Shown: positions 4,405 through 38,741 of the stretch, one piece after another
Position numbering within the stretch: position 1 is the first letter of the stretch
Layout of the letters: each line of letters opens with the position of its first letter
NCBI GenBank assembly: GCA_913009825.1
Contig: CAJVYQ010000003.1
Coordinates: 62,001-126,000 of the forward strand
Length of the DNA: 64,000 nt
DNA from: an uncultured Deferribacteres bacterium
GTDB taxonomy: Bacteria > Zhuqueibacterota > JdFR-76 > DREG01
Reading direction: 5' to 3'
Notes under the pieces: generated by a model
Seen by the model: only the letters and a program-made list of their open reading frames with translations
Told to the model about the DNA's origin: nothing
Database searches by the model: none
Translations under genes and position numbers: made by a program

Positions 4405-4464
4405 TTTTGAGATAACAACTAATGAAATATGCTAATAAATGACAGATAAAGGTTGGCACATTCT

Positions 4465-4740
4465 ATGTATTTGGCCAGAGTAAAAAAAAGAATCACGGCA
4501 ACGGAAAAACACCCGGCCTATCAAAAAAAACATGTGTTTGCAGTTCAGCCGGTTTATCCCGATGGCAGGGATAAAGGGGATGAATGGGCAGCCGTCGATT
4601 ATATTGGCGCCGGAATCGGCGATATTGTGGTTTGCGGCGGCGCGCCCGGTGTGGCAGGGAAAGTGTTCGGTCTGAAATTAGCGCCCATCCGTACACTGAT
4701 TATGGCAATTGTGGACAGAATCGATTACCGGGACATCTAG
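4465..4740 (+). CDS. BMC-P shell pentamer protein (EutN/CcmL family, paralog 3)
   Basis: A 91-aa EutN/CcmL protein from the ATG at 4465 (MYLARVKKRITATEKHPAYQ). An upstream TTG at 4453 is in frame, but the family begins at this methionine. It contains VDYIGAGIGDIVVCGGAPG and ends TLIMAIVDRIDYRDI. The basic segment RVKKRITATEKHP is unusual next to the other two paralogs. It ends three bases before the PduS-like start, so the two are probably translated together. Confidence 0.93.
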   Translation: MYLARVKKRITATEKHPAYQKKHVFAVQPVYPDGRDKGDEWAAVDYIGAGIGDIVVCGGAPGVAGKVFGLKLAPIRTLIMAIVDRIDYRDI

Positions 4741-4743
4741 AAT

Positions 4744-6039
4744 ATGACCATTGAAGATATCGGCAGGAACGGCATTGTCGGGGCCGGCGGCGCCGGGTTT
4801 CCCACACATATCAAATTAACCGCCCGCCCGGAATTTTTCATCATGAACGCCGCCGAATGCGAACCGCTGCTGCACAAGGATATGGAACTGCTGCGGCATC
4901 ATGCCGATGAGATTCTTGCCGGGATGCAGACAGCCATGAAATTAACCGGCGCGCAGTCCGGAATCATCGGTATCAAAGAAAAACATGACGATGTTATTGC
5001 GCTGTTGAGTAGAAAAATACCGGACAACATCCGCATCATCACCATTGGCGACTTCTACCCCGCCGGCGACGAAGTAGTTCTGGTTTATCTGACCACCGGC
5101 CGAGTGATTCAGCCCGGAGAATTACCCATAAGCGCAGGTTACCTGGTACAGAATGTGGAAACATTGTTCAATATTCACTTAAACCGGCCGGTGGTGGAGA
5201 AATATATTTCCATTGCCGGGGCAGTAAAAAATCCGGCTACCATCAAAGTACCGGTGGGCACAACTTACGGCGATGTCCTTTCACGGTTCGAAATTACTAC
5301 TGCAAATTACAAAGTTCGGGCCGGCGGTTTGATGATGGGAGAACCGGCGCCCGATCTCGACCGGGTAATTACCAAAAGAACCGGCGCCCTGATTGTCCTG
5401 CCGGCGGAGCATCCCGTTGTGCATACTTATGAACGTTATGCTACAGAACACGACACGGATCGACTGGCAAAAGCGTGCTGCGACCAGTGCAATTTTTGCA
5501 CCGAGCTGTGCCCCCGCTATCTGCTTGGCTATCCGGTTCGCCCGGAGACAGCCATGAGAAACCGGATGTTCGCCCGGGAAGAAGAACCGGTGCTTCACGT
5601 GGGAAACGCTTTTTGCTGCGAATGTAATTTATGTACTCTTTATGCCTGTCCGGAAGGTCTGGATCCCAAGGGCGCTACTTTGATAGAAAAAAGGCTTTAC
5701 TTACAGCAGGAAGAGAAATGGGAAGGTCTGCCGGTTACTCCCCATCCAATGGCGGAATACCGCAGAGTGCCCACCAAAAAGCTGATGCAGCGTTTGGATG
5801 TGCTGCAATTTAAAGACGAAGGGCATCTGCAGAATTTAGTTTTCAAACCGAATCAAGTGACGATTCCGTTGCGGCAACATGTGGGAGCGGCGGCGAAACC
5901 GGTTGTTTCCGGTGGCGACCGGGTAAAAAAATATGATCTCATCGCAGAGGCCAACGGAACCATCTCCGCCAACGTCCATGCTTCCATCGACGGAGAAATT
6001 GTATCGATTTCGGAAGAGGATATCATTATTCGGATATGA
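4744..6039 (+). CDS. pduS-like: PduS-like electron-transfer flavoprotein (RnfC-related)
   Basis: A 431-aa protein of the PduS/RnfC family. The N-terminal GIVGAGGAGFPTHIK is the glycine-rich FMN/NADH-binding motif of Nqo1/RnfC-type proteins. Two cysteine clusters follow: C246/C249/C252/C256 then P (classic 4Fe-4S), and C291/C294/C297/C302, where the last spacing is four instead of three. The C-terminus (from about 375) resembles a barrel-sandwich domain. PduS reduces cobalamin in Pdu BMCs; here no B12 enzyme is present, so I infer NADH reoxidation or electron transfer through the shell with the PduT-like trimer downstream. Confidence 0.88.
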   Translation: MTIEDIGRNGIVGAGGAGFPTHIKLTARPEFFIMNAAECEPLLHKDMELLRHHADEILAGMQTAMKLTGAQSGIIGIKEKHDDVIALLSRKIPDNIRIITIGDFYPAGDEVVLVYLTTGRVIQPGELPISAGYLVQNVETLFNIHLNRPVVEKYISIAGAVKNPATIKVPVGTTYGDVLSRFEITTANYKVRAGGLMMGEPAPDLDRVITKRTGALIVLPAEHPVVHTYERYATEHDTDRLAKACCDQCNFCTELCPRYLLGYPVRPETAMRNRMFAREEEPVLHVGNAFCCECNLCTLYACPEGLDPKGATLIEKRLYLQQEEKWEGLPVTPHPMAEYRRVPTKKLMQRLDVLQFKDEGHLQNLVFKPNQVTIPLRQHVGAAAKPVVSGGDRVKKYDLIAEANGTISANVHASIDGEIVSISEEDIIIRI

Positions 6040-6150
6040 ATTGAGCTATTGTATGGCGATTCGCTGAATCGTCAATAGAGATTTCCATAAAAAGTAAAAC
6101 CTGTGGAATGGCAGCAAGAAGTTTAAAACAAGGAAATCGCTCAATTCACG
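6036..6150. repeat. Degenerate CCTGAATTGAG-family repeat at the pduS stop codon
   Basis: The left end (tgaattgagctattg) starts inside the pduS stop codon, and the right end (aatcgctcaattc) lies near 6137-6149. An inner hairpin gcgattcgctgaatcg lies at about 6057-6072. Ends and inner hairpin match the 117-bp element at 19883-19999, but this copy has diverged and shows no clear target duplication. Confidence 0.6.
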
Positions 6151-6228
6151 TCGGACAGAAACTGAACCATATTTCACCCGGCGATCCAGCGAATCGCACA
6201 ACAGACAAAAAACGATCGGAGAGTTGCA

Positions 6229-17481: not shown

Positions 17482-19615
17482 TTATTTATCCTGACTCCGC
17501 AGCATGCGCAGCCCGTTGCCGATGACGGCAAATTCGCTTAATTCATGTCCCAATACGGCTATGGGCAGGGTGAAGACCCCGCTAACTGCGCCGATGACCA
17601 GCCCGCCAATCACCACCGCCGAAAGGAATAGATTTTGTTTTACCACCTTTTGATTGCGGCGGGCCAATTTCAAGGCGTACACCAGCTTTTCCAGGTCGTC
17701 TGCCATTAGCACCACATCGGCGGTTTCCAGCGCCACATCGGTGCCGGCGGCGCCCATTGCCACGCCAACGGTGGCTTCTGCTAATGCCGGGGCGTCATTT
17801 ATTCCATCGCCCACCATTACCACGTGGCCAACTGTTTGCGAAAGTTGACGAACTGCGGCCGCTTTGTCCTCCGGCTTCAATTCGGCAAAAACCAAATCCA
17901 GTTCCAGTTCCCGAGCAATGGCCTCGGCGGTGCGCCTATTGTCGTCGGTAAGCATGGCAATCTGTTTAATGCCGATGCGATGCAGTTGTTCAATGGCCTT
18001 TCTGGCGTTGGCCCGCAGTTGATCACGGATGGCAATGACACCCAGCACCGATTTCTCCGAGCCTGCCAGAACCACGGTCTTGCCTTCCTGTTGCAGGCGT
18101 TCGATGGTGCCGTATATTCCGTCCGGCGCCTGCGGGAACTGTTCTTCAAACAGAGCCGGGCTACCGACAAAGTGCCATCGTCCGTCAATCAGAGCCCGCG
18201 CGCCGGAGCCGGTAAGCGATTGAAATTCATGCGGACGGGAAAAGGCCGTTTGCTTTTCCCGGGCAAGGCCGACAATGGCCCGCGCCAGGGGGTGTTCACT
18301 GCCGCTTTCCACAGCCGCGGCCAGTTGCAAAATTTCATCCGCAGACGGCGTTTGAGCAGATTGGTTGGCCGGCAGAACGTCAGTCACAACCGGTTCGCCG
18401 CTGGTCAGGGTGCCGGTTTTATCCAGCGCCGCTACAGTCACTTTGGCCAGTTCTTCAGCATAAACCCCGCCTTTGATGAGCACACCTTTACGGGCGGCAG
18501 TACCTAATGTGGCCACCAGGGTGATAGGAATAGAGATCACCAGGGCGCAGGGAGCGGCGGCGACAATAAACACTGTGGCGCGGATAATCCAGGTGGACCA
18601 GGTAGCGTCAGACAGTAGCGGAGGCAGGATAGCAATTAGAATTCCGGTGAGCAAAACCGGCCGGGCTGTAGCGTTTACCGAAGCGCTCGATGAAGCGCTG
18701 GCTTTTTCCCTTGCGCTCCTGGGCTTCCTCCACCATTTGAATGATCCGTGAAAGGGTGTTGTCCGCAAAAGTTTTAGTAGCACAGGCTTCCAACATCCCC
18801 TCGCCGTTTATGCTGCCGGCAAATACCTGGCTGCCGGGTACTTTTTCCACCGGCATGCTTTCGCCGGTGATTGGCGATTCATTAACGCTGCTGGAACCTA
18901 CCGTTATTTCACCGTCCGCAGGCATGGCCTGGCCGGGTTTGACAATAAAAATGTCGCCCACCCGTATGTCTTCCACCGGAATTTCCTCTTCCGATCCGTT
19001 GCGCTTCACCAGGGCAAATTTTGGCGCCAGATCCATCAGGGCTTTGATGGCGGAGCGGGTTTTTTCCTCGGTGTAACCCTCAACCGCTTCCGAGATGGAA
19101 TAGAGAAACACCAGCATGACACCCTCCGCCGCCTGCCCCAAAATGGTCGCCACCACAGCCGCGGTTGCCATCAAAAATTCGATACCGATTTCCCGTTCGA
19201 AAAGCAATTCTTCGATGGCTTCACGACCAAAATAGTAACCACCGATTGAAATAGCTGCCAGATAAATGCCCAACTGGACTGCCGCGGGCAGACCCGCGTA
19301 GCCCAGCAGCCAGCCGGCTAGCAGCAAAACACCGGAGAGAACAGAAGTAATCACCTTGGGGTTACGCCAGGGCTTGGGCGCCGAGGGTAGTGCGTGACCC
19401 GTAACCGCCGGAAAGCCCAGGGATCCTAATTTTTCCTTCAAATCCCCGGCACCGGTTTTTTCCGCATCATAGGAAATTTCCACCTTCGCCGATTTGGGAT
19501 AAATTTTCAGATCCTTTATACCTGAATGGTCTTTAAGGCCGCGCTCAATAACGGCTGCCTCGTGCTCACAATCCAGGTTGGCGACGCGAAGTGTTAAATT
19601 TTCCTTTGTTCCCAT
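17482..19615 (-). pseudogene. P1B-type heavy-metal ATPase, split by a single-base frameshift
   Basis: The N-terminal frame (19615 down to about 18660) has an HMA domain with a Cys-Glu motif (NLDCEHEAAVIERG), membrane segments and the actuator motif ITGESMPVEK. The second frame (to 17482) has the metal-site AAAPCALVIS, the phosphorylation motif DKTGTLTSGE, GDGINDAPALAEA and GHELSEFAV. The shift falls near 18655-18665 in a CCGGCCGG tract: removing one base joins SPA to VLLTGILIA. Together the parts make a full-length exporter of about 700 aa. The DCxxE HMA motif and APC site suggest Zn/Cd rather than Cu, which is inference. It is either a true frameshift or a sequence error. Confidence 0.85.
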
Positions 19616-20001: not shown

Positions 20002-21144
20002 TTACTTATTTTCCAAAAAGCGCAAATTTACCTTGCCCCTGGTGTTGGAATCGAGGATGTAGATTTTCACTTTCTTTAGAATCTTCTCCATGGTTTCCAG
20101 GTACAACCGTTCCCGGGTCACATCAGAGGAAGCGCTGCCGCCGGTCTTGCGATACTCCGCCAGCATCTGCAGGAATCGCTGTGTTTCGCCCTGTGCCCGG
20201 TTGATTACTTCCGCCTCATATCCTTCTGCTTCACGAAGCGTGCGCTCGGCCTGCCCTTTGGCAGGCGGAATGAGACTGTTACGGTAGCCCTCGGCCTGGT
20301 TTATCGTGCGCGATTTATCCTCCCGCGCACTTGCCACATCGCGGAAAGCGCCTGCTACCTCTTCCGGAGGATACATCTTGTTGAGGTTTACGGTGACCAC
20401 CGACAACCCGGTTTTATATGCATCCAGCAGGCGCTGGGTTTCGGCCTGCACCATGCGCTGTATCGGCTCCTTGGCAATAGTGAGGATATCATCAACCAGC
20501 ATATTGCTTCCGATACGGGTAACGGCATAGCGCACCACTTGGTTGATAATCCTGTAGGGACGGGAGTCGACTCTAAAAAGATATTTAGCCGGATCGTTAA
20601 TACGATACTGGATAACCATTTGCACATCGACGATATTCTCATCGCCGGTGAGAATCTGAATTTTACCGGGCGATGAATGTACCCCGCGGTGTTCCGGCAA
20701 AAGCATGCCGATGCCTTCCCGCCGAATCTCCGCCACGTTCACCTTATCCACCTGCTGAAAAGGCCAGGGCAGGCGATAGTGCAAACCTTCGGTAATTCCT
20801 TCCTTTATTACCCGGCCAAACAGGCGCTCCACCGCTTCTTCGCCGGGGTTAACCATGTAGACCCCCGAGGCCAGGTACAGCGCCAGCAGCGCCAGCATAG
20901 TCAGCGCGGCAATACGGCGCGGCCGCAGATGCCCGAAAGCTTTCCGAAGGTCTTCTTTTATTTTAAACCTCTTACCCGCTTCCTGCAGTCTGGTAAAAAT
21001 GGTTGCGGTTTTCAAAAAAACTTTCTGCGCGTCTTTCCGGGCTCTCCGGCTCCAGTCGCCGAGCTTATGGAGATATTTCTCCCAATCAATGCCCTGCCGG
21101 GGCTTTTCCGGTTGAGGCTGCTTGTCATTTTGCTTATTGTCCAT
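20002..21144 (-). CDS. hflK-like: HflK-like SPFH (band 7) membrane protein
   Basis: A 380-aa protein: a charged cytoplasmic N-terminus of about 85 residues, one membrane segment (AALTMLALLALYLASGVYMV), then the SPFH domain with VNPGEEAVERLFGRV and GLHYRLPWPFQQVDKVNV. AEGYRNSLIPPAKGQAE and EVINRAQGE are HflK signatures. AGGAGG seven bases upstream selects the ATG at 21144. In E. coli HflK forms a large ring with HflC around the FtsH protease. Here it is the last of three consecutive SPFH genes, 14 bases after the HflC-like gene. Confidence 0.85.
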   Translation of the reverse strand: MDNKQNDKQPQPEKPRQGIDWEKYLHKLGDWSRRARKDAQKVFLKTATIFTRLQEAGKRFKIKEDLRKAFGHLRPRRIAALTMLALLALYLASGVYMVNPGEEAVERLFGRVIKEGITEGLHYRLPWPFQQVDKVNVAEIRREGIGMLLPEHRGVHSSPGKIQILTGDENIVDVQMVIQYRINDPAKYLFRVDSRPYRIINQVVRYAVTRIGSNMLVDDILTIAKEPIQRMVQAETQRLLDAYKTGLSVVTVNLNKMYPPEEVAGAFRDVASAREDKSRTINQAEGYRNSLIPPAKGQAERTLREAEGYEAEVINRAQGETQRFLQMLAEYRKTGGSASSDVTRERLYLETMEKILKKVKIYILDSNTRGKVNLRFLENK

Positions 21145-21158
21145 TCGCACACCTCCTT

Positions 21159-22040
21159 CTATTTCTGTTTTGCCCGTTGCAGGTATTTAAACAGCTCAGC
21201 GTCGGAAGGCAGGACGATGGTGGTCTTCTCATCGATGAGCTTTTCGTAGGCTTGCAGTGAGCGGGTAAATTCGTAGAACCTGGGATCCTTCCGGAAGGCA
21301 TCGGCATAGATTTTGATTGCCCGGGCATCCCCCTCACCTTTAATCTTCTCGGCTTTCTCGTAGGCAGCAGAAAGGATCAGGGTCTTCTCTTTGTCGGCGA
21401 TAGCACGAATCTTGGAAGACTCTTCGGTGCCTTCGGAGCGATACAGCCGTGCCATTTTCTCCCGTTCAGCCCTCATACGCTGGAACACACTTTGCTTATT
21501 TTTCTCGGGGAAATTAAGCACCTTCACCCGCACATCGGTTACCTGAACACCGTAATCGGCCAGTTTTTGGGCGGTTACCTCCTGCACCTGTGCCGTCATA
21601 TCCGGCAGTCTAAGGCTGTCTTCGTTTACATTTACTAAGTTACCCAGATTGTAACGACCCAGCGACACGCCCAACTCTGAAAACACTATATCGTTTAAGC
21701 GTTCCCGGGCGTTGGTGAAGGTCTTCAACGTCCTCATATAAACTACAGGATCCTGAATCCGCCAGGTGACAAAGCTCTCCACCATGACATTTTTCTTATC
21801 ACGAGTCAAAAATTCAGCATTCCTCGAGGTGTAGACCTTCAGACGATTATCGTAGCGCTGGACATTTTGAATGGGACTGGGCAGCTTCCAGCTTAATCCC
21901 GGCTGGGTAATTGCCCGCAGAGGTCGACCGAACTGGGTAACCACCGCATATTCGGTTTGATCCACGGTAAACAATATAGAATTGAGCACGATGATGGCAA
22001 AAACGACCACCATCAGTAAGATAGTTTTACTGATCTTCAT
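21159..22040 (-). CDS. hflC-like: HflC-like SPFH membrane protein
   Basis: A 293-aa protein with an N-terminal membrane anchor (TILLMVVVFAIIVLNSILF) and an SPFH domain starting VDQTEYAVVTQFGRPLRAI. RAEREKMARLYRSEGTEE and KIKGEGDARAIKIYADAF are HflC signatures. Its start overlaps the end of the CDF-SPFH fusion gene by four bases (ATGA type), so translation is coupled. It probably assembles with the HflK-like protein and, by gene order, with the fusion protein. No FtsH gene is in the window. Confidence 0.88.
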   Translation of the reverse strand: MKISKTILLMVVVFAIIVLNSILFTVDQTEYAVVTQFGRPLRAITQPGLSWKLPSPIQNVQRYDNRLKVYTSRNAEFLTRDKKNVMVESFVTWRIQDPVVYMRTLKTFTNARERLNDIVFSELGVSLGRYNLGNLVNVNEDSLRLPDMTAQVQEVTAQKLADYGVQVTDVRVKVLNFPEKNKQSVFQRMRAEREKMARLYRSEGTEESSKIRAIADKEKTLILSAAYEKAEKIKGEGDARAIKIYADAFRKDPRFYEFTRSLQAYEKLIDEKTTIVLPSDAELFKYLQRAKQK

Positions 22041-23593
22041 GGCTTCTTCACCTCCTTTATAAATTTGTCACTAATCTTCCCTTTTAAAAACCACAACTCG
22101 GTATTTTCCACCTGCACCTTTTCATCGACGATCAGTTTATTGACGTTGACCAGGATTTTTTCCAATGCCTCAATGTAAAGGCGTTTTTCGGTGATAGCGC
22201 GACTCTTCCGGTATTCCCGCAGCTTGCTGAGAAATCTCCGGGCGTCGCCGGTAGCAGTGTGAATCTTTTTTCCCCGGTAGGCTAAGGCTTGCTCAACCTG
22301 CTTCTGCGCCTCGCCGCGGGCTTTGGGGACGACCTCCGATTGATACCCCAGCGCCTCGTTGATATAGGTGTTTTTATCCTCGCGCGCGCTGGCTACATCA
22401 CGGAAGGCTTCCATCACATCGCCCGGCGGGATATCTTTGGTTAGTTGAACCGTGAGCAGTTGAATCCCGGATTTCTGCCGGTTCAAGGCATCCTGGGCAA
22501 TTTGTTTCGCCCTCTCCTGGATCCGGTTCTTACCTACGGTGATGATAAAATCGACAGAATTTTGATTAATCTGGTTGCGCAGAGCTGACTCCACCGTACT
22601 GCGCACTAATTCTTCAGGATCCGATAGATTATAGATGAATGAAAAGGCATCTTTGACCCGGTAGTGGACCACTGCTTCAATTTCGATGAGATTCTCGTCG
22701 CCGGTAAGCATCAGGGAGGTTGGAACCTTCTCCATACGCACATCGGTTACTCCTATCCGGTTTACCGATTCAAAGGGCCACGGCAGCCGGTAGTGAAGTC
22801 CTGCCTGCACCTGGCGAACAGGTTCACCAAAACGCTTGACGATGGCCTCCTCGTTCCAGCGCACCGTGTACACACCGGAGGCAAAATAGACGATCACCGC
22901 CAGGATAATTCCGGCAACGGCAAAACGCCGAAACCAGCGCAGGATTTTTTCCAAATAAACTTCTCCGTCTTTATGGGCGAGGTCCAGAAAACCTCCGCGG
23001 CGCAACGCTTTAACGGCATTACCGAGTACTTCCAGCCCATTGCCTAAAATCAAGAGAACGATAATAGCCGCTGCAATCTTATCCAGGGTGGTAAAACCCA
23101 TGATATAGCCCACCAGCGCCGCCACTACCACTATGGAGCTGTACATGTCAACCCGGGCGTGGGTGCCATTGGCAATGAGGCTGGGGGAATTGGTCTCGCG
23201 CCCCACGAAAATCTGGTAGCGCGACATAAAATAGGTGATGGCAATAGATGCCAGCGAAATTGTCGCCACCAGCGGAACATTGCTCAATTCCTCAGCGCCC
23301 CTTGCCAGCACCTCGCGCACAATTTCGATACCCACATAAAAAATGAATCCGGACACAATCATGGCAATGATGTTCTCGATACGGCTGATGCCCCGTGTGT
23401 CGGCGGTGTTTTCCCGGCGGGCCAGAAATAACCCCGCCAATACCACCCCGGAGGGGATGAGATCCGAAAAGGAATGCCAGGCCGAAGCTTTTAGCGCTAT
23501 ACTGCCGGACAGGGAAGACAGGAAAAATTTAAGGGCTATCAGCAGCAGGTTAGCCGCAATGGCAATTAAAACCGTTTTTTCTTTGCGATTCAT
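22037..23593 (-). CDS. Fusion of a cation diffusion facilitator and an HflK-like SPFH domain
   Basis: A 518-aa protein. Residues 1-200 form a CDF-type transporter membrane domain with both metal-site pairs visible: H40/D44 (AWHSFSDLI) and H145/D149 (GTHARVDMYSS). The usual cytoplasmic CDF dimer domain is absent. After residue 215 comes a second membrane segment and a complete HflK-type SPFH domain (EEAIVKRFGEPVRQVQAGLH, DVASAREDKNTYINEALGYQ). The start overlaps the parvulin gene by four bases and its end overlaps the HflC-like start by four bases. Metal export by a channel held in an SPFH ring is a reasonable inference; the actual function is unknown. I am confident in both halves and in the continuous frame. 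Confidence 0.88.
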   Translation of the reverse strand: MNRKEKTVLIAIAANLLLIALKFFLSSLSGSIALKASAWHSFSDLIPSGVVLAGLFLARRENTADTRGISRIENIIAMIVSGFIFYVGIEIVREVLARGAEELSNVPLVATISLASIAITYFMSRYQIFVGRETNSPSLIANGTHARVDMYSSIVVVAALVGYIMGFTTLDKIAAAIIVLLILGNGLEVLGNAVKALRRGGFLDLAHKDGEVYLEKILRWFRRFAVAGIILAVIVYFASGVYTVRWNEEAIVKRFGEPVRQVQAGLHYRLPWPFESVNRIGVTDVRMEKVPTSLMLTGDENLIEIEAVVHYRVKDAFSFIYNLSDPEELVRSTVESALRNQINQNSVDFIITVGKNRIQERAKQIAQDALNRQKSGIQLLTVQLTKDIPPGDVMEAFRDVASAREDKNTYINEALGYQSEVVPKARGEAQKQVEQALAYRGKKIHTATGDARRFLSKLREYRKSRAITEKRLYIEALEKILVNVNKLIVDEKVQVENTELWFLKGKISDKFIKEVKKP

Positions 23594-25482
23594 CTCGTAC
23601 TCACCTCCTTCTGTTTTTTAATTAAAGATTCCAATACTTGATCATAAATCACTAGGTTGGACCGGTCGATCATATCGTTATACATCCCGGCAGTTAAATC
23701 GTTATGCTTTTTAAGTTTGAGGTCTTCTTTCAGATGGTCTTTCATCTCCTCATAAGATCGTTGCCGCGGTTCCTGTTTTTCCCTTATTTTCACAATTAGA
23801 TAGTCATGCCCCATGGAAAACGGCTCTGTCATTTCTCCTGCTTTTAAGTCCATGAATTTCTCATGTAAGGCATGGTTTAACATTTCGTAATAAGGATTGC
23901 CGGTTTCCCTGATCCAGAAATCCAGTTTACCGCTATTCCGGGCTGTAAGCGGGTCCTCGGAGTACTGCCCGGCGACCTCTTCGAAGGGCATTCCTTTTTT
24001 AAAGAAGCCGGATTTTAGTTTGTCGTAAGCCTCTTGAATTTTTTCTTTCGCCTTTTTGTCTTCATCTTCATTCTGTCCCCCGCGCACCACAATAATGTTA
24101 ATCTTCACCTGCGGCTGTGTTTTAAAACGCTCTCTATTCTGCTCGTAAAATTCCTTCACTTCCTCCTCGCTCACTGCCAATTTTTGATCCACCTCCTCTC
24201 GATGCAGGGTCTGCTTCAGGATATCCTCCCGCACATGCTCGATCTCCTCTTTTTTTTGGGCGTTGAGCATACGGTCGTAAGAGTCCTCCAACAATAACAG
24301 ACGCTCGATCATCCGGTTCACTAACTTCACCCGCTGGTCATAGCTGCGGTACTTTTCCTGTTCTGCGGGTGGCAGCTCATTGAATTCCTGGTAGAAATCA
24401 GCTAATGTGAAGCGGCGGCCATGCAGGGTAAACAAAGTCTTATTCTTATTTTCTTCGTACAATTTCTTTTCCCGTTCATCCATCAAAAAGCGGCGAATCA
24501 TGCCTTGCACTGTTTCAAAAGGGAGATAGGAAGCAGGTATTTTTTCCTTTAACCGGACTATAAAATATTTTCCGTTTTCCTGAATGGGTTTGCTGAATTC
24601 ACCCGGGTTCAACGAGGTGATTGCCCTTTCGAATGCCTCCCCGCGCATCCCGCTTCGATATTCCATAGTGGCTATGGTGCGGTCCCGGTCAAACATTTCT
24701 GCTATTATCTAAAAACTTTCACCGGATCCTAATTTAGCCCGGGCTCTTTGCGCCTGCTCTTGCGCTTTTGCAGTGGTATCGGCGATCTCAATCTGTTCGA
24801 TCACCCATCTTTCCGGCTCACGATAGGTTTCCTTATCCTTCTCATAAGCCTCCCGCACTTCATCCCCGGCAGGTTCCGGCACGCGCAGAATCTCGTAGTT
24901 TTTAGTAATAGTTGCTGCATTCTTTAACTCTTGAACATAACCCGCGACATATTCGCCTTCTTTTTGCGATTCCAGAATGTTTTTGATTTCTTCGCGCACT
25001 TCATACAACGGCTTGTTTCCGAAGCGATTGCGGTTCTCATCATAGTATTTCTGGATATCCGTCTCACTTACCGGAATTTTATCTTTCTCATGCATTTCGG
25101 TGTGTAGCTGCTGAAGTGTTAATTGATCCTCGAGGTGCTTGAAAGCATGACGGATGTTGCCGCGATTGTCCAGTTGCTTTTCCTTGATCTTGCGTTTAAC
25201 CATATCGTCCAGCACCAGCTCCCGGATGAGGCCGCGATAGACTTCTTTCTCCTTCGGAAGCTGATCCTTAAGCGCTGCCAGGGAATCGCCTGCCGGCACC
25301 TTTAGTCCTTCAGTGCGCTGTTCCAGGTAATTCTCCAAATCATTTACCGTAATCTCACCGTTGTCATAAGTTGCCACAGTATCCGGATTGGGGGGCGTTT
25401 TTTTCTTGCCGCCACAGCCAAATAGAATGACCGTTAGTGAAATGACACAAACCCATTTGAGCCCGGAATAATTATGTACCAT
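23590..25482 (-). pseudogene. Double-parvulin (SurA/PpiC-like) lipoprotein interrupted by an in-frame amber codon
   Basis: The minus strand encodes a lipoprotein signal (VCVISLTVILFGCGG), helical SurA-like segments and two parvulin-type PPIase domains. The stop TAG at 24709-24711 sits in the first PPIase domain: the frame reads GESF-stop-IIAEMFDRDRT and continues without any shift to 23590, about 630 codons in all. The residue expected at the stop is Glu or Gln. A downstream ATG at 24696 could restart translation, but the product would lack the signal peptide. Either the gene is newly inactivated, there is read-through, or the base is a sequence error. It would serve as a periplasmic chaperone for outer-membrane proteins. 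Confidence 0.85.
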
Positions 25483-26386: not shown

Positions 26387-28729
26387 CTATTCTTTAAATT
26401 TCAACAGCCGCAGGGCATTAGCCACAACTGCCAATGTGCTCCCTTCGTGAAATATAATTGCCACGCTGATGCCTGCCATTCCTAATAATGTTGTGGGAAT
26501 CAGCAGTGCAATAATCCCCAGGGAAATTATTAGGTTTTGAAAAATGATTCGCCGGGACTGGCGGCTTAATGCCACGGCAAACGGCAGGCGGGACAGGTCG
26601 CTGGCCATTAGCGCCACATCGGCGGTTTCCAACGCCACGTCGGTGCCGCCGGCGCCCATGGCAATCCCCACGGTAGCATTCGCCATGGCCGGTGCGTCAT
26701 TAACTCCGTCCCCCACCATGGCGATTTTCCGGTGGCTTCTTAAATATTCCCGAATGACCTTAACCTTTTCGTCCGGTAACAACCCGGCTTTAAATTCGCT
26801 TACTTCCACTTGCCGGGCGATGGCAGCAGCTACCCGCTGGTTATCCCCGGTGAGCATAATCAATGACCGAATCCCCAATTGCCGCAGCCTTTGCATGGCA
26901 GCCCGGGCATTGGCGCGCGGCCGGTCTGCCAGCGCAATAATGCCGCCGAAACGGTTTGCGATGTGAACTAACATAGTAGTATTTCCGGCGGCTTCCAATT
27001 CCCGAACTTTTTTTATAATTTCTTCCGGGGGGCGTTCATCTTTCAATTCAAAAAATAATTTCAAATTTCCAATGGATACCGGTTGTCCATTCACCCTGCC
27101 CTGTATACCTCTTCCGGCAAAATTTTGCACATCGTCGGCTTCCGGCAGATCGAGGTTTTGCGCCCGGGCTTTTTGTAAAATAGCCTGGGCCAGCGGGTGA
27201 TTGGAACGGCTTTCCAACGCCGCCGCCATCAGGAGTAGCCGTTCCTCCGGTATCCCATTCAAAGGTACCAGAGCGGTTACCTCCGGCTTTCCCCTGGTGA
27301 TGGTACCGGTTTTATCGAAGGCGATGGCACGTAGCGCCCCCAAATTTTCCAGATGTACGCCGCCCTTTATCAGAATACCGTTCCGGCCGGCCTGGGCAAT
27401 GCCCGAAAGTATCGCGGCGGGAGTGGCAATTGCCAGCGCACAAGGAGATGCCGCTACCAAAACAGCCATGCCGCGTAAAAACGCTGTGCTCCATGAAAGC
27501 CATCCAAGCAGCGGAGGAGCAAAAATCGCCAGGATTACCCCGACTAATATCACCGGCACAAAAATCCGCTCAAATTTTTCGGTAAACTGTTGGGTGGGTG
27601 ATTTTTGAGTTTGTGCTTCTTCCACCATTTGGATCACCCTGGCCACTGTAGTATCTTTAGCCAGTTTGGTCACTTCAATTTCCAATGCGCCTTCGCCGTT
27701 TACGGAACCGGCAAAAACTTTCTCACCGGTCATTTTTTCCACCGGCACGCTTTCGCCGGTAATGGGACTTTCGTCCACTGCAGAGCTGCCTTCGATAACC
27801 CGGCCGTCGATAGGAATGCGGTCGCCGGGACGGACAATCACTACATCACCCCGTTGCAGGTCTTCCACTGCCAATTCTATCTCCGAGCTGTTGCGACGCA
27901 CCCGGGCGGTTTTGGGGGTAATTTGCCCCAGGGCCTTAATGGCGTGCCGCGCCCGGTCCATGGCGTAATGCTCCAGCGAATGACCCAGGCTGAACAGGAA
28001 TAACAGCAGCGCTCCTTCCGGCCATTCGCCCAGAATAGCCGCTCCCAGTGCCGCAACCACCATTAGAAAATCGATATCGAAGCGCAGGTGCATAACTGCC
28101 TTCAGTCCATGGCGGGTGGCATCGTAACCGCCCGAAATGTAAGCAAGTATATAGAAAACAACCGCCACCGGTAAAGGGAGACCAAATAAATTTTCACCTA
28201 AAAACCCAATTCCCAGGAATAGCCCGGCAAACAGCGCCAGCACTAATTCCCAATTTTCCTGAAACCAGGTTTGGGATTTTTCTTCCTCGATTCCATAGCC
28301 CATGCTGCGAATCCGCCGTACGATTTTATCGTGGTCCAGTTTTCGGGTGTCATATTCGATGCGCATTTTTTCCGCGGCATAATTCACCGAAACGGTAATC
28401 ACGCCCGCTCGATGTTTCATAATATGCTCGATACTGCCGGCACAATCGGCACAATCCATCCCGGTAATATGCAGGATTTCATGTTCAAACTGTCGGGTTA
28501 TTTCCGCACCCCCTTCTTTTGCCAGACGCTTTACCTTTTCTAACGAGATGAGATTCGGATCGTAATGCAGGCACAATAACGCCTCTCCGTCTTTTTGTTC
28601 AATATGGACCTTGTGAAAACCCCGGTGTTCCAGGAGGCGCTTCTGCAACTGTTGAACACATTGGTCCTTAACATCTTTGATCCGGGGGAGAAGTAATGGA
28701 ATGTCTAATTTTACTGTTTTTTTCTTCAT
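26387..28729 (-). CDS. P1B-type heavy-metal exporting ATPase
   Basis: A 780-aa intact pump. There is a cysteine-poor N-terminal HMA-like domain (about 1-80), then an HMA domain with GMDCADCA (90-97), membrane segments, the actuator motif ITGESVPVEK, SPC metal site at 428-430 (AASPCALAIATP), phosphorylated D472 in DKTGTITRG, and GDGVNDAPAMANA. SPC-type P1B ATPases typically export Co, Zn or Fe rather than Cu; specificity here is inferred. It follows the CusA/P-II genes on the same strand and probably moves metal to the periplasm for the RND pump. An element inserted at its stop codon leaves the protein unchanged. Confidence 0.93.
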   Translation of the reverse strand: MKKKTVKLDIPLLLPRIKDVKDQCVQQLQKRLLEHRGFHKVHIEQKDGEALLCLHYDPNLISLEKVKRLAKEGGAEITRQFEHEILHITGMDCADCAGSIEHIMKHRAGVITVSVNYAAEKMRIEYDTRKLDHDKIVRRIRSMGYGIEEEKSQTWFQENWELVLALFAGLFLGIGFLGENLFGLPLPVAVVFYILAYISGGYDATRHGLKAVMHLRFDIDFLMVVAALGAAILGEWPEGALLLFLFSLGHSLEHYAMDRARHAIKALGQITPKTARVRRNSSEIELAVEDLQRGDVVIVRPGDRIPIDGRVIEGSSAVDESPITGESVPVEKMTGEKVFAGSVNGEGALEIEVTKLAKDTTVARVIQMVEEAQTQKSPTQQFTEKFERIFVPVILVGVILAIFAPPLLGWLSWSTAFLRGMAVLVAASPCALAIATPAAILSGIAQAGRNGILIKGGVHLENLGALRAIAFDKTGTITRGKPEVTALVPLNGIPEERLLLMAAALESRSNHPLAQAILQKARAQNLDLPEADDVQNFAGRGIQGRVNGQPVSIGNLKLFFELKDERPPEEIIKKVRELEAAGNTTMLVHIANRFGGIIALADRPRANARAAMQRLRQLGIRSLIMLTGDNQRVAAAIARQVEVSEFKAGLLPDEKVKVIREYLRSHRKIAMVGDGVNDAPAMANATVGIAMGAGGTDVALETADVALMASDLSRLPFAVALSRQSRRIIFQNLIISLGIIALLIPTTLLGMAGISVAIIFHEGSTLAVVANALRLLKFKE

Positions 28730-29070: not shown

Positions 29071-29409
29071 TTAAATTGCATCTGCTCCTTCATCCGCTGT
29101 TCTAATACTTTTTGCCCTCAGAATCTCGGTCACAAATATTTTGCCGTCGCCGCGTCGCCCGGTATGGGCATTTTTATGGATACAATCTATAATTTTATCT
29201 ACATCCTCATCCGGACAAACGATCTCAAGCTTTATTTTGGGTGTAAACTCCACCACATAATCCTGATAATGGTGGGGGTAGCTTTCATCTTTTTCGCGGC
29301 CGAAGCCTTTCACATCACATACGGACAACCCGTGAATGTGAAGCTGTTTCAGAGAAGTTTCCACTTTATTAAGCATAAAAGGTTGAATATATGCTTTTAT
29401 TTCTTTCAT
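29071..29409 (-). CDS. P-II-like signalling protein linked to metal efflux (PII-NG type)
   Basis: A 112-aa ferredoxin-fold protein of the GlnB superfamily: KEIKAYIQPFMLNKVETSLK, DVKGFGREKDESYPHHYQDY (T-loop region), EIVCPDEDVDKIIDCIHKNA, then RRGDGKIFVTEI. GGAGG eight bases upstream selects the ATG at 29409 over one at 29424. The T-loop lacks a canonical uridylylated tyrosine context and is His/Tyr-rich. A P-II subgroup located beside metal RND pumps is known in the literature; this gene directly follows the CusA-like gene and fits it. It may sense metal or nucleotide and modulate the pump, which is inference. Confidence 0.88.
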   Translation of the reverse strand: MKEIKAYIQPFMLNKVETSLKQLHIHGLSVCDVKGFGREKDESYPHHYQDYVVEFTPKIKLEIVCPDEDVDKIIDCIHKNAHTGRRGDGKIFVTEILRAKSIRTADEGADAI

Positions 29410-29440
29410 GATATTTTCCTCCATACTTTAGTATTGTTAA

Positions 29441-32400
29441 TTAAAATTCCACCTTCTCTCTCTCAAACCAGCCATAAAGACTTGGCAATACAAAGAGTGT
29501 GAGAAGGGTTGATGAAAACAAACCGCCAATAACAACAGTTGCCAGCGGTCTTTGCACCTCAGAGCCGGTACCTGTTGAAAAAAGAAGCGGCATCAATCCC
29601 AGGCTGGCAACCAGGGCGGTCATCAATACCGGCCGCAATCTTAATTTTGCCCCGGTAACGATGGCATCGTGCAGATCGAGACCCTGATCCCGTAATTGAT
29701 TGAAATATGAAACCATTACCACGCCATTTAATACGGCGACACCAAATAAAGCAATAAACCCGACCGAGGCAGGAACACTTAAATAAAGTCCGGACAGGAA
29801 CAATGCCAGAATACCGCCGATGATGGCAAACGGCACGTTTAAGATGATCAGGAAAGCATTCCTTACCGAATTGAATGTAGAAAAGAGCATGATAAAAATT
29901 AACAATATCGTCAACGGCACAATCAGGGAAAGCCTTGCCATTGCCCGCTGCTGGTTCTCAAACTGTCCGCCAAAAGTAACATAATATCCCGGCGGCATGG
30001 AAACATTGCGGTCAATCTGCTGTTTGGCTTCGGCAACAAAGCTGCCCATATCGCGGCCTTCAACATTGCACTGAATTGAGATACGGCGCTGACTATTATC
30101 ACGGCTTATCTGTTTGGGTCCCACAATAGGACGGATTTCTGCAACCTGGGCCAACGGAATCCGGCCCCCGTCCGGAGTTGAGATTAAAATGTTTTTTATC
30201 TTTTCCGCGTTGTCCCGATAAAATTCCTTGTAACGGACAAAGATATCAAACCGCTTCTGCCCCTGGAAGACCTGGCCTACCGTAGAGCCGCCAATCGCAG
30301 TTTCAACCACCTCCTGCACTTCGTCCACGTTCATCCCCAGTCTGGCGATTTTATCTCGATTCACTTTAATCTGCACCTGCGGTTTACCGCTTATCTGCTC
30401 TAATTGAACATCGGCGGCGCCGGAGATGCTTGCCGCTACAGACTGAATTTCAGCCCCTTTTTGCGCCAAAAGATTCAGATCGTCGCCAAACAATTTGATA
30501 GCTAACTGCGCTTTTACCCCGCTAAGTAACTCATCCACACGCATCTGAATCGGCTGGGTAAAATTGAGCAAAACACCCGGGAATTCACTCAACTTTTCCC
30601 GCATCTTTTCTACAAGCTCCTTTTTATCTTTAACCGTCCATTGGTCTTCCGGTTTAAGAATAACATAAATTTCCGAATTGTTGACCGGTTCAGGGTCCCC
30701 GCCGACTTCTGCCCGCCCAACTCTTGAAATAACGTCGATCACTTCCGGAAATTCCAATAGAAGTGGCTCCAATGAGCGTGATACTTCGCCGGCTTGTTGC
30801 AGTGAAGTGCTCGGCGAGAGGGTGATTCGGACCGCCACCGTGCCTTCATCTAAAATTGGTACAAACTCTGTTCCCAGAAATGGGACAAGAAGCAAACTAC
30901 CGATCAACAAAATAATGGCAACAACAAGAGTTAGCACGCGTCGTTTTATTACACGTTCAAGAACAGGGATGTAGATTGATTGTAAAAAGCTGACAATTAT
31001 ATTTTTCTTCTCCTTTATACCTTTGGAAAAAAAATAAGTGCACAAAACCGGCACCAGCGTTAAGGAAAAGATCAGCGAGCCTAACATGGCAAAACTGATG
31101 GTAAACGCCATCGGGCTGAACATTTTTCCTTCTACATCCTGCAGCGTGAACAATGGTAAGAAAACAATGATTATGATGGAAATCGCAAACACGATCGGCC
31201 GGCCGACCTCCCTGCAAGCCTGTAAAATCACCGGAACAGCTTTTCCATCCTGTGGACGATTTTCACTCAGGTGCCGGATGATGTTTTCCACCATAACAAT
31301 GGAACCGTCTACCATCATACCAATTCCAATTGCAAGGCCGCCGAGGGACATCAGATTCGCAGACATACCCGTATAGTTCATCAAAATGAAGGCGACTAAT
31401 ACAGATAACGGCAAGACAAGTGTAACAATAAAAGCGCTGCGTAAATTTCCTAAAAACAACAACAACACAATAACCACCAGAATTCCTCCTTCCAGCAGCG
31501 CATCTTTCACCGTACCGGTCGCCTTTTTAACCAAATCTGCCTGATCGTAATAGGGAACAACTTGCACGCCTTTTGGCAGCGAGGCATTGATTTGTTCCAC
31601 TTTTTTCTCAACTTCTCCAATCACTTTAGAAGTATTCTCGCCTAATAGTTTTAACACAATTCCCGAAACCACTTCACCTTTATTATTCATGGAAACCAGA
31701 CCGCGGCGGATTTCCGGACCAAAGGCAACTTTTGCAATATCACGAATGTAAACCGGAATTTCGTTTCTGCGCACTACTTTGATATTTTCGATATCCTTTA
31801 ACGTAGATACCCAGCCTAATCCGCGGATGAGATATTCCTCAGAATAACGGACAATAAAATTCCCGCCGACATTGCGGTTGTTTGCTTTTACCACATCCAG
31901 CACTTCATCGAGAGTGATGTCGTATTTCTGCATTAAAACCGGATCGAGTTGAATCTGATACTGTTTTACTTCCCCGCCAAAGCTCAATATTTCAGTAACG
32001 CCGGGAACGGTGCGCAGTTGAAACTTTACAATCCAGTCCTGTATTTCCCTTAACTCCATCAACGAATAACCTTCGCCCTGTAAATAATATTGGTAAACCT
32101 GTCCCAGGCCGGAGGTGATGGGGCCTAATTCCGGAAAACCAAGTCCCTCCGGTATCTCTCCCTTTGCCGATTCAAGACGCTCGAAAACTAATTGCCGGGC
32201 AAAATAAATATCCACATTGTCTTTAAAATAGACCGAAACGACTGATAAGCCAAAAGTTGAAACAGATTTCACGTCACGGATATCCGGTAATCCATTCATA
32301 GCTACTTCGATTGGATAGGTGATTAATTGTTCGACTTCTTCCGGCGCCAGACCGGATGCTTCAGTAAATACCTGAACCAGAACCGGTGAAACATCCGGAA

Positions 32401-32515
32401 AAGCATCTATTGGTAACTTTTGTAATGAGATAACGCCGGCCACAATAAGCAGTGCAGTAAAAATCAAAATTAATAATCTTTGGCGGGCGGCAAACTCGAT
32501 GATTTTATCAATCAT
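29441..32515 (-). CDS. cusA-like: CusA/CzcA-family heavy-metal efflux RND pump
   Basis: A 1024-aa inner-membrane RND transporter. The N-terminal VSPVLVQVFTEASGLAPEEVE is typical of the HME subfamily. The transmembrane-4 proton-relay region LAIGIGMMVDGSIVMVEN (about 394-411) has Asp403 and Glu410 and is intermediate between the CusA and CzcA versions, so the metal cannot be named from it. It forms a tripartite complex with the upstream CusB- and CusC-like genes. About 135 bp containing a foldback element separates it from cusB. Confidence 0.93.
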   Translation of the reverse strand: MIDKIIEFAARQRLLILIFTALLIVAGVISLQKLPIDAFPDVSPVLVQVFTEASGLAPEEVEQLITYPIEVAMNGLPDIRDVKSVSTFGLSVVSVYFKDNVDIYFARQLVFERLESAKGEIPEGLGFPELGPITSGLGQVYQYYLQGEGYSLMELREIQDWIVKFQLRTVPGVTEILSFGGEVKQYQIQLDPVLMQKYDITLDEVLDVVKANNRNVGGNFIVRYSEEYLIRGLGWVSTLKDIENIKVVRRNEIPVYIRDIAKVAFGPEIRRGLVSMNNKGEVVSGIVLKLLGENTSKVIGEVEKKVEQINASLPKGVQVVPYYDQADLVKKATGTVKDALLEGGILVVIVLLLFLGNLRSAFIVTLVLPLSVLVAFILMNYTGMSANLMSLGGLAIGIGMMVDGSIVMVENIIRHLSENRPQDGKAVPVILQACREVGRPIVFAISIIIIVFLPLFTLQDVEGKMFSPMAFTISFAMLGSLIFSLTLVPVLCTYFFSKGIKEKKNIIVSFLQSIYIPVLERVIKRRVLTLVVAIILLIGSLLLVPFLGTEFVPILDEGTVAVRITLSPSTSLQQAGEVSRSLEPLLLEFPEVIDVISRVGRAEVGGDPEPVNNSEIYVILKPEDQWTVKDKKELVEKMREKLSEFPGVLLNFTQPIQMRVDELLSGVKAQLAIKLFGDDLNLLAQKGAEIQSVAASISGAADVQLEQISGKPQVQIKVNRDKIARLGMNVDEVQEVVETAIGGSTVGQVFQGQKRFDIFVRYKEFYRDNAEKIKNILISTPDGGRIPLAQVAEIRPIVGPKQISRDNSQRRISIQCNVEGRDMGSFVAEAKQQIDRNVSMPPGYYVTFGGQFENQQRAMARLSLIVPLTILLIFIMLFSTFNSVRNAFLIILNVPFAIIGGILALFLSGLYLSVPASVGFIALFGVAVLNGVVMVSYFNQLRDQGLDLHDAIVTGAKLRLRPVLMTALVASLGLMPLLFSTGTGSEVQRPLATVVIGGLFSSTLLTLFVLPSLYGWFEREKVEF

Positions 32516-32538
32516 AATCGATTCTCCTTGGAATTATT

Positions 32539-32619
32539 GTAACTATTCCGTCCACAAAACACTCAAAAAATATTATCGGATTATTATTCGAGTCTTTCGC
32601 GGGCTGACTGAGTAGTTAC
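32539..32619. mobile_element. 81-bp GTAAC-ended foldback element between cusA and cusB
   Basis: The ends GTAACTATTCCGTC and GACTGAGTAGTTAC are imperfect inverted repeats, flanked by GAATTATT (32531-32538) and GAATTATG (32620-32627), a 7-of-8 target duplication. It was inserted within the efflux operon without interrupting a gene. Confidence 0.75.
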
Positions 32620-32649
32620 GAATTATGGTTAAAACTAATTTTCATAAAA

Positions 32650-33840
32650 TCAGTGATCTTCGCCAAATGATTCTTTTTCCATTTCGGACTTTACAAAAAA
32701 TATTTTTTGAATAACGATTTTCTCATGCTCTTGAACTCCTTCTTTAATTTGAATCTGCCTGTCAGACTGTTCTCCAATAACGACATTCTGTTTTCTGTAT
32801 TTGTTTGGTTCAATTTCTACAAAAACAAAATAATCGGTACCGTCATATTGTACCGCTTCATCGGGCACTACAAGAATTGTATCCGGCGAGCCGTAATAAA
32901 ATTCTATTGTGGTAAACATATTCGGAATTAATTCAGACTTTCCCCGTTTGATTTCTACGAAAACTGTAAATGTCCGGGATCGAGGATCCAACTCTTTGTT
33001 AATTTTGATTACATGCCCCGGAAATTTTTCATCAGGCAGAGCGGTAGCAGTGATGCCTGCTTCTTGTCCTGTTTTTAAATTTGCATAATCCTTTTCGTAA
33101 ACCTCTGCCTCCACCCAAATGCGGGTATTATCAATTACTTTCATGATATCCGTTTCCTGCTGAACCATTTGTCCCAGTTCGATATTACGTTCGGTTACGT
33201 AACCGTTGATCGGGCTTTTAACAGTAAGGATGCCTCGTCTATGTTCGTCGCCGATAAACATTGTTTCCACATCTTCCTCGCTGAAACCGAGTGAGTGCAA
33301 TTTACGGTCGGCTGCTTTCAATTCCGCCTCGGCCCTTTCAAAACTTGCTTTGGCGGCGATTAAATCCTTTTCCGCTTTAATGTCCTTCTCACGCAATTTT
33401 TTAATTCGCTCATAGTTGGTTTTTTCAGCCTGATATGCTGCTTTGGCACGGATATAATCAGCCGTGATATTAGCAATTTCCAAACTTTCAAGCTCGAATA
33501 GTAGCTGCCCTTTTTTCACATAGTCGCCAATCTGGACATAAATTTTACGCACCCGCCCGGATACCAGGCTATTCAAATGAGCAACGAAATCAGGATTTAC
33601 GACCACTTTGCCCTGGGCTGTAAACGACTGACGTATGGTTGTCCGCTGTGGCGTCCCCACTTTTATGCCAACTTCCCGGACGATCTCCGGCGATAAAACA
33701 ATCTCTTCATTATGTTCACTGCTCTCTTGTTTCATTTCGGTTCTATTTTCGTCTCCTCCCGCACAGCCGATAATAAAAAATCCCAAAATCAACAGTATAA
33801 TTCGATTGGATCCAAACGTCAAGAATGTGTTAAGTTTCAT
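32650..33840 (-). CDS. cusB-like: CusB-like periplasmic adaptor (membrane fusion protein)
   Basis: A 396-aa membrane fusion protein with a lipobox-like end of the signal (LILGFFIIGCAGG). The barrel-sandwich halves LVSGRVRKIYVQIGDYVKKG and GYVTERNIELGQMVQQETDI flank a long coiled-coil hairpin (about 120-200). It links the RND pump to the outer-membrane channel. The first ATG overlaps the cusC stop by four bases, so the two are translationally coupled. The early segment EMKQESSEHNEE is hydrophilic and carries a Met-His pair but no clear metal motif. Confidence 0.92.
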   Translation of the reverse strand: MKLNTFLTFGSNRIILLILGFFIIGCAGGDENRTEMKQESSEHNEEIVLSPEIVREVGIKVGTPQRTTIRQSFTAQGKVVVNPDFVAHLNSLVSGRVRKIYVQIGDYVKKGQLLFELESLEIANITADYIRAKAAYQAEKTNYERIKKLREKDIKAEKDLIAAKASFERAEAELKAADRKLHSLGFSEEDVETMFIGDEHRRGILTVKSPINGYVTERNIELGQMVQQETDIMKVIDNTRIWVEAEVYEKDYANLKTGQEAGITATALPDEKFPGHVIKINKELDPRSRTFTVFVEIKRGKSELIPNMFTTIEFYYGSPDTILVVPDEAVQYDGTDYFVFVEIEPNKYRKQNVVIGEQSDRQIQIKEGVQEHEKIVIQKIFFVKSEMEKESFGEDH

Positions 33841-35066
33841 AATTCTACTCCTACCAATTTTTCCAAATGTGCTATTTCTATTTGATAGTTTCTTAATGAT
33901 TGCAAATAACCTCCCCGTGTTTGAATAAACGTCTGCTGTGCGTCAATAAATTGCATATAGCCAATTTCTCCTACGTTATAGCTTTCCCGGGCAATGCGAA
34001 ATACTTCTTCCGCTTCACCTAATAAACTTATTTGGTATAAGGTTACTTCGTTGGCCGCCTTTTCTAAATTGGCCGTAGCCTGGTTAAATTCCCTTTGCAA
34101 ACGCAGTTGTTCCGCAGTTAGAAGTTGGTTCACTATTGCCAGTTGCGCCCTGGCGGATTCAACGCGTCCTTTCTGCCCCATAAACCACAAAGGGAAAGAC
34201 AAACTAATTTCTCCGCCTTTAAAATCTACCTTATCTATTTGCTGGTTGAAGTAAGTAAGAGAAATCTGCGGCAGGAAACCGGCATAGGCCAAACGTTTGG
34301 CATTTAACGATGACGTTTTGGAACTTTGCGCCGCCCGGATTGCCGGATGACCCAGTAAATATTTTTTTAATTCTTCATAAGAAATAATTTTAATCTTCTC
34401 AGGAATTGAATCCGATAAAACGATTTTTATCAAATCATCACTTTTCAGGCCTAAAACCTCACGCAAAACAGACTCCGCAGCATCCAGGTCTTTTTGCATA
34501 CCATTCAGGCGCCTTTGCGCTTCGCCGAGGTTAACTTTTGCCTTGAGCATGGTTAAACGGTCGCTGTCGCCTAATTCATAGCTTTGTTTCGCCCGGTCGA
34601 AAAAATCCTGCGAAAGCTTAAGGTTTTGTCTGGCCAGTTCCACCAATCCTTGCTGCATCAATATGGTAAAGTAGGCTTCTTTAACCTGGAAAGTAAGTTC
34701 CCTTTCGAACTCCTGTAAGTTGAAATATTTCTGCTGGATTTCAGCGCGTAACAATTTGTGGCGAAATATGTAATTAGTGGGAAAGTCGAATGACTGGGAG
34801 AAAAATAACCTTTTTTCCCCATAATTAGTGTAAGTTTGATGTTTGGGAACTGCTTCAATTTCAATCCCTGTTTCCGGGTTTTCCGGCATTATTTCAGACC
34901 AATAAACCCCTCTTTGGAAATCAATCTTTTTTTGCTGAACCTTATAAAGAGGATTACTTTTCAGCGCCAGGCTTTTTGCCTCTTTCAACGATAAAATAAG
35001 CGTTTGCTGTGCAGAGGCACTTAAATTCATAATCAGAATAAAAATGATCGGAAACATTTTTTTCAT
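33837..35066 (-). CDS. cusC-like: CusC-like outer-membrane efflux channel (TolC family)
   Basis: A 409-aa protein with a signal peptide ending SASAQQ and two TolC-type outer-membrane-efflux repeats: LSLKEAKSLALKSNPLYKV near the N-terminus and NVGEIGYMQFIDAQQTFIQT near the C-terminus. Long alpha-helical stretches match the periplasmic tunnel. It is the first of the three pump genes in transcription order and overlaps cusB by four bases. Confidence 0.9.
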   Translation of the reverse strand: MKKMFPIIFILIMNLSASAQQTLILSLKEAKSLALKSNPLYKVQQKKIDFQRGVYWSEIMPENPETGIEIEAVPKHQTYTNYGEKRLFFSQSFDFPTNYIFRHKLLRAEIQQKYFNLQEFERELTFQVKEAYFTILMQQGLVELARQNLKLSQDFFDRAKQSYELGDSDRLTMLKAKVNLGEAQRRLNGMQKDLDAAESVLREVLGLKSDDLIKIVLSDSIPEKIKIISYEELKKYLLGHPAIRAAQSSKTSSLNAKRLAYAGFLPQISLTYFNQQIDKVDFKGGEISLSFPLWFMGQKGRVESARAQLAIVNQLLTAEQLRLQREFNQATANLEKAANEVTLYQISLLGEAEEVFRIARESYNVGEIGYMQFIDAQQTFIQTRGGYLQSLRNYQIEIAHLEKLVGVEL

Positions 35067-38381: not shown

Positions 38382-38741
38382 TTATTCTTCCACATGTTCC
38401 AGGGCATCACTAATTAAATTTTTAATATGCCGGTCATCAAGTGAATAATAGACCATTTTACCGACTTTCTGATGTTTGACCAACTTCATATTACGCAAAA
38501 TTCGCAACTGATGAGAAATGGCGGAAGTCGACACATTGGTCAAAGCAGTGAGATCACACACACACAGTTCTTCTTTTGATAAAGCTAAAACAAGCTGCAG
38601 ACGGGTTGGATCACCCAATAGTTTAAACATCTCCGCTATTTCGTCCATTTGATCCGCATCCGGCATGATGTTTTTCACATGATCCACTTTTTCCCGATCT
38701 ACAACATGGATACTGCAAATTTCCGCATTATTTTCCTTCAT
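38382..38741 (-). CDS. ArsR/SmtB-family metal-sensing repressor
   Basis: A 119-aa winged-helix repressor. The DNA-recognition helix region is LTNVSTSAISHQLRILR. Two metal sites can be read: a cysteine site (C9, C60, C62 in ELCVCDL, alpha-3N type) and a C-terminal site D103-x-H105 ... H116-x-x-E119 matching the alpha-5 zinc site of SmtB. This points to a Zn/Co/Cd sensor that releases DNA when metal binds. A perfect operator palindrome lies 14 bases upstream of the start. It likely represses itself and the downstream cus-containing unit. Confidence 0.92.
   Translation of the reverse strand: MKENNAEICSIHVVDREKVDHVKNIMPDADQMDEIAEMFKLLGDPTRLQLVLALSKEELCVCDLTALTNVSTSAISHQLRILRNMKLVKHQKVGKMVYYSLDDRHIKNLISDALEHVEE

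Follow-up and report, generated by a model that had tools for sequence, protein, structure and literature searches.

A CDF transporter fused to HflK

The 64,000-nucleotide stretch of DNA analyzed here (the window) carries a gene (22037–23593, minus strand) for a 518-amino acid protein that consists of a six-helix CDF metal transporter domain, followed in the same frame by the anchor helix and SPFH domain of HflK. The open reading frame begins with ATG and runs without internal stop codons, both domains score above curated cut-offs, and full-length homologues occur elsewhere, bearing out the continuous frame proposed in the initial annotation of this DNA. In Pfam, Cation_efflux (PF01545) matches amino acids 8–197 (E = 2e-31; 109.6 bits, cut-off 26.6) and Band_7 matches amino acids 243–414 (E = 5e-24). 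In NCBIfam, the HflK equivalog TIGR01933 matches amino acids 241–494 (228 bits, cut-off 159.4), and the CDF model TIGR01297 scores 123 bits (cut-off 82).

The PF01545 domain (amino acids 8–197; 23003–23572, minus strand) has six transmembrane helices and a YiiP-like model. It retains both metal-site pairs first assigned to it, H40/D44 and H145/D149 (codons at 23474–23476, 23462–23464, 23159–23161, and 23147–23149, respectively, minus strand). A basic linker (amino acids 192–223; 22925–23020, minus strand), delimited by hydropathy and charge and predicted to be cytoplasmic, is the least conserved segment of the protein. It leads into a seventh transmembrane helix corresponding to the HflK anchor (amino acids 224–242; 22868–22924, minus strand), which has a hydropathy peak of 2.25 and is helical at amino acids 211–238 in the structural model. 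The HflK-type SPFH domain and coiled coil (amino acids 241–494; 22112–22873, minus strand) match TIGR01933 and are predicted to be periplasmic; the closest solved structure is that of E. coli HflK (7vhp/7vhq).

Two elements of CDF transporters are missing. The cytoplasmic dimer domain (ZT_dimer, PF16916) has no match in the fusion in the Pfam search, as had been noted initially, although it was found in the stand-alone CDF proteins L139 and L141. This domain is usual in CDF transporters but not universal, and CDF proteins without it are known (e.g., MmCDF3). Alignment also showed the fusions to lack HPFGH, the histidine motif located between TM2 and TM3 in ordinary CDF proteins.

Fold and topology

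The CDF half has the expected fold on modeling. Foldseek paired the N-terminal half with YiiP (8f6h; E = 9e-8, rmsd 3.1 over 194 columns) and the C-terminal half with E. coli HflK (7vhq; E = 8e-23). The AlphaFold2 model was built from an alignment of 11 sequences; longer alignments with untrimmed HflK2 rows misplaced residues over the CDF half and were excluded from modeling. Its mean pLDDT is 66.8 (mostly 56–73 in the CDF half) and its pTM is 0.35, values at which the relative placement of the domains in the model is unreliable.

Hydropathy indicates seven helices, with the basic loop at amino acids 192–223 separating the sixth from the seventh, and predicts an anchor helix in an HflK-like orientation with the six CDF helices ahead of it. 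If the N-terminus is inside, as in CDF proteins, seven helices would leave the linker in the cytoplasm, and the SPFH domain should be periplasmic, as it is in HflK. The initial annotation had the SPFH domain standing in place of the cytoplasmic CDF domain; the predicted seventh helix would put it on the opposite side of the membrane. Similarly, the proposed metal channel is better described as an antiporter, as CDF proteins are antiporters.

Operon partners

The fusion gene is coupled to both of its neighbors through the four-base overlaps noted earlier (both ATGA), and this coupling is retained in most relatives. Downstream is a gene for HflC (21159–22040, minus strand; 293 amino acids; TIGR01932), the next gene at every fusion locus that extends far enough. 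It is succeeded by a second, unfused HflK (HflK2; 20002–21150, minus strand; 382 amino acids; TIGR01933), and HflC and HflK2 accompany the fusion wherever the contig is long enough. As HflC and an unfused HflK2 belonging to a clade of its own are encoded beside the fusion, a transporter in every subunit of the ring, as first envisaged, is unlikely. Upstream is a gene for a SurA/PpiD-like parvulin lipoprotein (23590–25482, minus strand), with the lipobox LFGC and matches to Rotamase and SurA_N.

The order parvulin, CDF::HflK, HflC, and HflK2 recurs, with a lipobox in several of the parvulin copies. The order differs on a plasmid of Aquibium, in which the parvulin gene comes after HflK2. At locus L103, a DegP-like protease gene follows HflK2. 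The operons examined showed no ftsH gene.

In the window, the parvulin frame is interrupted by a TAG at 24709–24711, at which relatives have Glu in the alignment. Either a genuine nonsense mutation or an error in sequencing could account for this. The parvulin of relatives is a single open reading frame of 574–679 amino acids. The copy on the Aquibium plasmid (L044, 18649–20831, plus strand) also seems to be in two frames, although it is split elsewhere than the copy in the window.

Recurrence and origin of the fusion

The fusion is rare but recurrent, and is spread across phyla. A scan of genome contigs yielded five further loci with both halves, which are in one frame in four of these (L008, L009, L010, and L012). 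At the fifth, L011, the two frames are broken inside the CDF half (~amino acids 162–166), away from the domain junction, on a contig with a coverage of 1.41. The genome with L008 has a second, more distant copy (L103). A genome from the phylum searched around L012 (G334) contains a divergent full-length copy (L101) and a copy truncated by the contig end (L102), and match coordinates and scores in a genome of the window's phylum (G062) are the same as those of L008, so the assignment of L008 to Actinomycetota in its record is probably mistaken. In Aquibium oceanicum, a finished conjugative plasmid (NZ_CP018172.1; L044) encodes a 515-amino acid fusion that is 42% identical and annotated as HflK only (WP_072608301.1).

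The search for the same domain order thus found the fusion in six other genomes and one complete conjugative plasmid. In four phylum-wide searches, it occurred in seven of 709 genomes, including the window's own, with the remaining strong matches being to the HflK half alone. Genome contigs were scanned once, with most fusion loci in metagenome assemblies, Alphaproteobacteria covered through plasmids only, and Gammaproteobacteria outside the sample. HflK-bearing plasmids of Tistrella, Azospirillum, and Phaeobacter have ordinary hflK-hflC pairs, and E. coli DNA gave no match to the fusion. A viral origin was also considered and rejected: the viral contigs scanned were devoid of the fusion, and in phage records the matches were to HflK alone or, over a short length, to CDF alone.

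A branch with SH-aLRT 98 sets ten fusions apart in a tree of 65 HflK sequences, and eight HflK2 proteins form a separate group (support 99), with the other 47 HflK sequences making up the rest. A tree built from 34 CDF domains likewise unites the same ten fusions (bootstrap/SH-aLRT 99/96). The long branches of L101 and L044 make finer placement in these trees unsure. The simplest reading is that a single old fusion event would have been followed by transfer of the genes as a block. That two genes were joined artefactually, during assembly or sequencing, would fit with other damage nearby (the in-frame TAG in the parvulin gene and a frameshift in an ATPase gene) but is refuted by the full-length, one-frame fusion recurring on a finished plasmid as well as in several separate assemblies, and by the single clade formed by each of its halves, and has practically no probability.

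Conservation of the transporter half

The H-D/H-D ligands, contributed as pairs by TM2 and TM5, are kept in nine of the ten fusions. The exception is L101, in which the site reads M/N/H/H and three of the four ligands are lost. For six pairs of fusions, the identities of the CDF and HflK halves are 86/77, 82/65, 85/71, 80/70, 60/50, and 48/42%, respectively, the CDF half being the more conserved in each. Identity in the linker (amino acids 201–223) is 23–61%, as compared to 48–86% for the CDF half. The retention of the metal site and the better conservation of the CDF half over the HflK half point to a working transporter.

Metal-resistance surroundings

The operon is surrounded by genes related to metals, consistent with the metal-handling role suggested initially. 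Upstream of the operon is a P1B-type metal ATPase with an SPC motif and one HMA domain (26387–28729, minus strand; TIGR01525, 638 bits). An equivalent is upstream in L105 and L106 as well, and downstream on the Aquibium plasmid. A second P1B-type ATPase, identified through Pfam and NCBIfam, lies downstream of HflK2 and is split into two frames by a frameshift (17482–19615, minus strand). Its motif is APC in place of the usual CPC, and its HMA motif (DCEHE) is degenerate. Further upstream is an RND metal efflux set composed of a pump, a membrane fusion protein, and an outer membrane channel (29441–35066, minus strand; ACR_tran, HlyD_D23, and OEP); RND efflux genes are also upstream in L105 and L106. 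Alignment with homologues identified an ArsR/SmtB regulator (38382–38741, minus strand) with CVC in α3 and α5-like D-x-H and H-x-x-E residues. Such a CadC/SmtB-like regulator is near four clusters: those of the window, L105, L106, and L102, where it is directly upstream of the parvulin gene.

The surrounding DNA resembles a more extensive metal-resistance island. Inspection of translations by eye indicated MerR, MerT/P-like, and mercuric reductase-like genes at 42542–45587 (minus strand). A TonB-dependent receptor with a C-terminal HMA domain, a pairing unusual among outer membrane proteins, is encoded at 38811–41330 (minus strand). A possibly metal-related P-II family protein with homologues in L104, L105, and L106 is encoded at 29071–29424 (minus strand), between the ATPase and RND pump genes.

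In Aquibium, the plasmid-borne block lies among copper genes (PCuAC, SCO, CopC, and CopD). A plasmid of Nitratireductor rhodophyticola (NZ_CP139721.1) matches this island (94%) as far as codon 86 of a histidine kinase and resumes inside the parvulin gene at 85%. Absent are ~7.3 kb that include the fusion, HflC, and HflK2, while the ATPase is retained (87% identical). Thus, in that strain the remainder of the island can do without the SPFH block, which is not essential to the ATPase. The deletion has joined 86 codons of the histidine kinase to the parvulin gene (L146, 8740–10296, plus strand), and the product is annotated as one peptidyl-prolyl isomerase.

Relationship to known systems

The fusion is a real, recurrent variant of two known families. 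Like E. coli HflK/HflC (TIGR01933/TIGR01932; 7vhp, 7wi3, and 9cz2), it has an HflK-type SPFH domain, anchor helix, and coiled coil (35% identity in the Foldseek alignment) and an adjoining HflC gene. Unlike E. coli HflK, its cytoplasmic N-terminal part is swapped for the six-helix CDF domain, and its loci have a second HflK and metal-related neighbors, with no FtsH gene seen. With the CDF zinc antiporters YiiP/FieF (PF01545), it shares the six-helix fold (8f6h) and two ligand pairs, here H-D and H-D, but it differs from these in being devoid of ZT_dimer and the TM2-TM3 HPFGH motif and in being joined to an SPFH domain. Stomatin-type SPFH proteins associate with channels (e.g., aquaporin 1 and stomatin, PDB 9zd2), likewise combining an SPFH scaffold with a transport protein; in those cases the two are separate proteins, whereas here the SPFH domain is covalently fused to a metal antiporter.

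According to the initial annotation, an SPFH ring with a metal channel in every subunit would be a new kind of metal-handling complex. Our literature search found no publication describing a CDF-SPFH fusion, although the Aquibium protein is already public under its HflK annotation. A survey of Lactobacillus transporters reportedly mentions CDF and Band 7 together. The text of Hinderhofer 2009 contains neither "efflux" nor "cation".

Possible function of the fusion

Our preferred explanation, for which we would claim somewhat less than an even chance, is that the fusion, HflC, and HflK2 form a metal-export module in an HflK/C-type ring, with some subunits bearing a transporter. A CDF metal/proton antiporter domain that has lost the regulatory cytoplasmic domain would sit in a seven-helix inner-membrane protein, and this protein would assemble with HflC and HflK2 into a ring, by analogy to the E. 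coli HflK/HflC cages. The ring would keep the CDF domains together, substituting for dimerization through the lost cytoplasmic domain, and might gather the transporters, P1B ATPase, and parvulin chaperone in a single membrane patch. A divalent metal would pass from the cytoplasm to the enclosed side in the periplasm, from which it would be handed on, probably to the RND pump. Zn/Cd-like specificity is suggested by the HD/HD site and the regulator, both through general knowledge of these families. Alternating HflK/HflC cages enclosing the periplasmic domains of FtsH have been solved for E. coli (PMC12048511).

Consistent with export are the intact metal site, the better-conserved CDF half, the co-occurrence of the fusion with HflC and HflK2, and the ATGA coupling. 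The P1B ATPase, RND, and mer neighbors, the CadC/SmtB-like regulator, and the copper setting on the Aquibium plasmid also favor it. Arguing against export are the zinc-depletion induction of a related cluster in P. aeruginosa (below), the lost site in L101, the persistence of the ATPase after loss of the block, and the modest confidence of the CDF model. A more specific version of export, which we find doubtful, is that alternate or some subunits of the vault have their own CDF antiporter and would release metal into a closed periplasmic chamber, from which it would be passed on unspilled, the ring replacing the CDF dimer domain.

An unlikely alternative is that the CDF domain binds metal mainly to signal to an HflK/C-FtsH complex, so as to direct the breakdown of metal transporters or of membrane proteins damaged by metal. 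In E. coli, FtsH is bound and controlled by HflK/C (PMC12048511), the parvulin and the DegP-like protease of L103 point to envelope quality control, and the altered site of L101 could still be regulatory. However, no ftsH gene was seen in these operons, and all four metal ligands and the entire transporter half are strongly conserved.

Still less probable is a complex for acquiring or redistributing metal during shortage, as suggested by the hflK-hflC-hflK-hmtA cluster of P. aeruginosa (PA2434–PA2439), the closest cluster that the literature search turned up. In the available parts of the published descriptions, through which we compared this cluster, three HflK/HflC-type SPFH genes occur with a P1B ATPase. 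The SPFH genes PA2439, PA2438, and PA2437 and the ATPase HmtA (PA2435) are induced in a zinc-depleted znuA mutant (PMC4542158), Zur binds the PA2439 promoter (PMC8531726), and protein levels are higher at low zinc (PMC11761036), a pattern of induction that suits uptake. HmtA is described as an importer. An SPFH survey names the SPFH proteins PaFlo5-7 and reports a patchy, transfer-like distribution (PMC13086221), with matching gene numbers given elsewhere (PMC9431628). These same parts of the descriptions do not mention a CDF domain. The P. aeruginosa cluster differs in its Zur-controlled induction by zinc depletion, while the clusters described here have RND efflux genes, mer genes, and a regulator of the ArsR/SmtB type as neighbors, in the manner of resistance genes.

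Least probable among the functional alternatives is that the CDF half has lost transport and serves merely as an additional membrane anchor. Loss of the regulatory domain and the TM2-TM3 histidine motif, and of the metal site in L101, would fit with this. Against it, the HDHD site persists in nine copies, including those with an overall identity as low as 42%, constraint is stronger on the CDF half than on the HflK half, and CDF proteins such as MmCDF3 are known to do without the cytoplasmic domain.

SPFH proteins are often found beside channels and transporters, and how rings act on such partners is a general question. A natural covalent fusion fixes the partner of the ring, making assembly and transport testable together in one small operon. 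The fusion also suggests a possible role for the zinc-regulated HflK/HflC genes beside a metal ATPase in P. aeruginosa. Carried on a conjugative plasmid, the fusion block would constitute a transferable metal-handling module.

The divergent L101 fusion (3761–6217, plus strand) is 818 amino acids in length and has ~290 extra membrane residues at its N-terminus. Upstream of it is a gene for a DsbD-like membrane protein with the motif CGAC.
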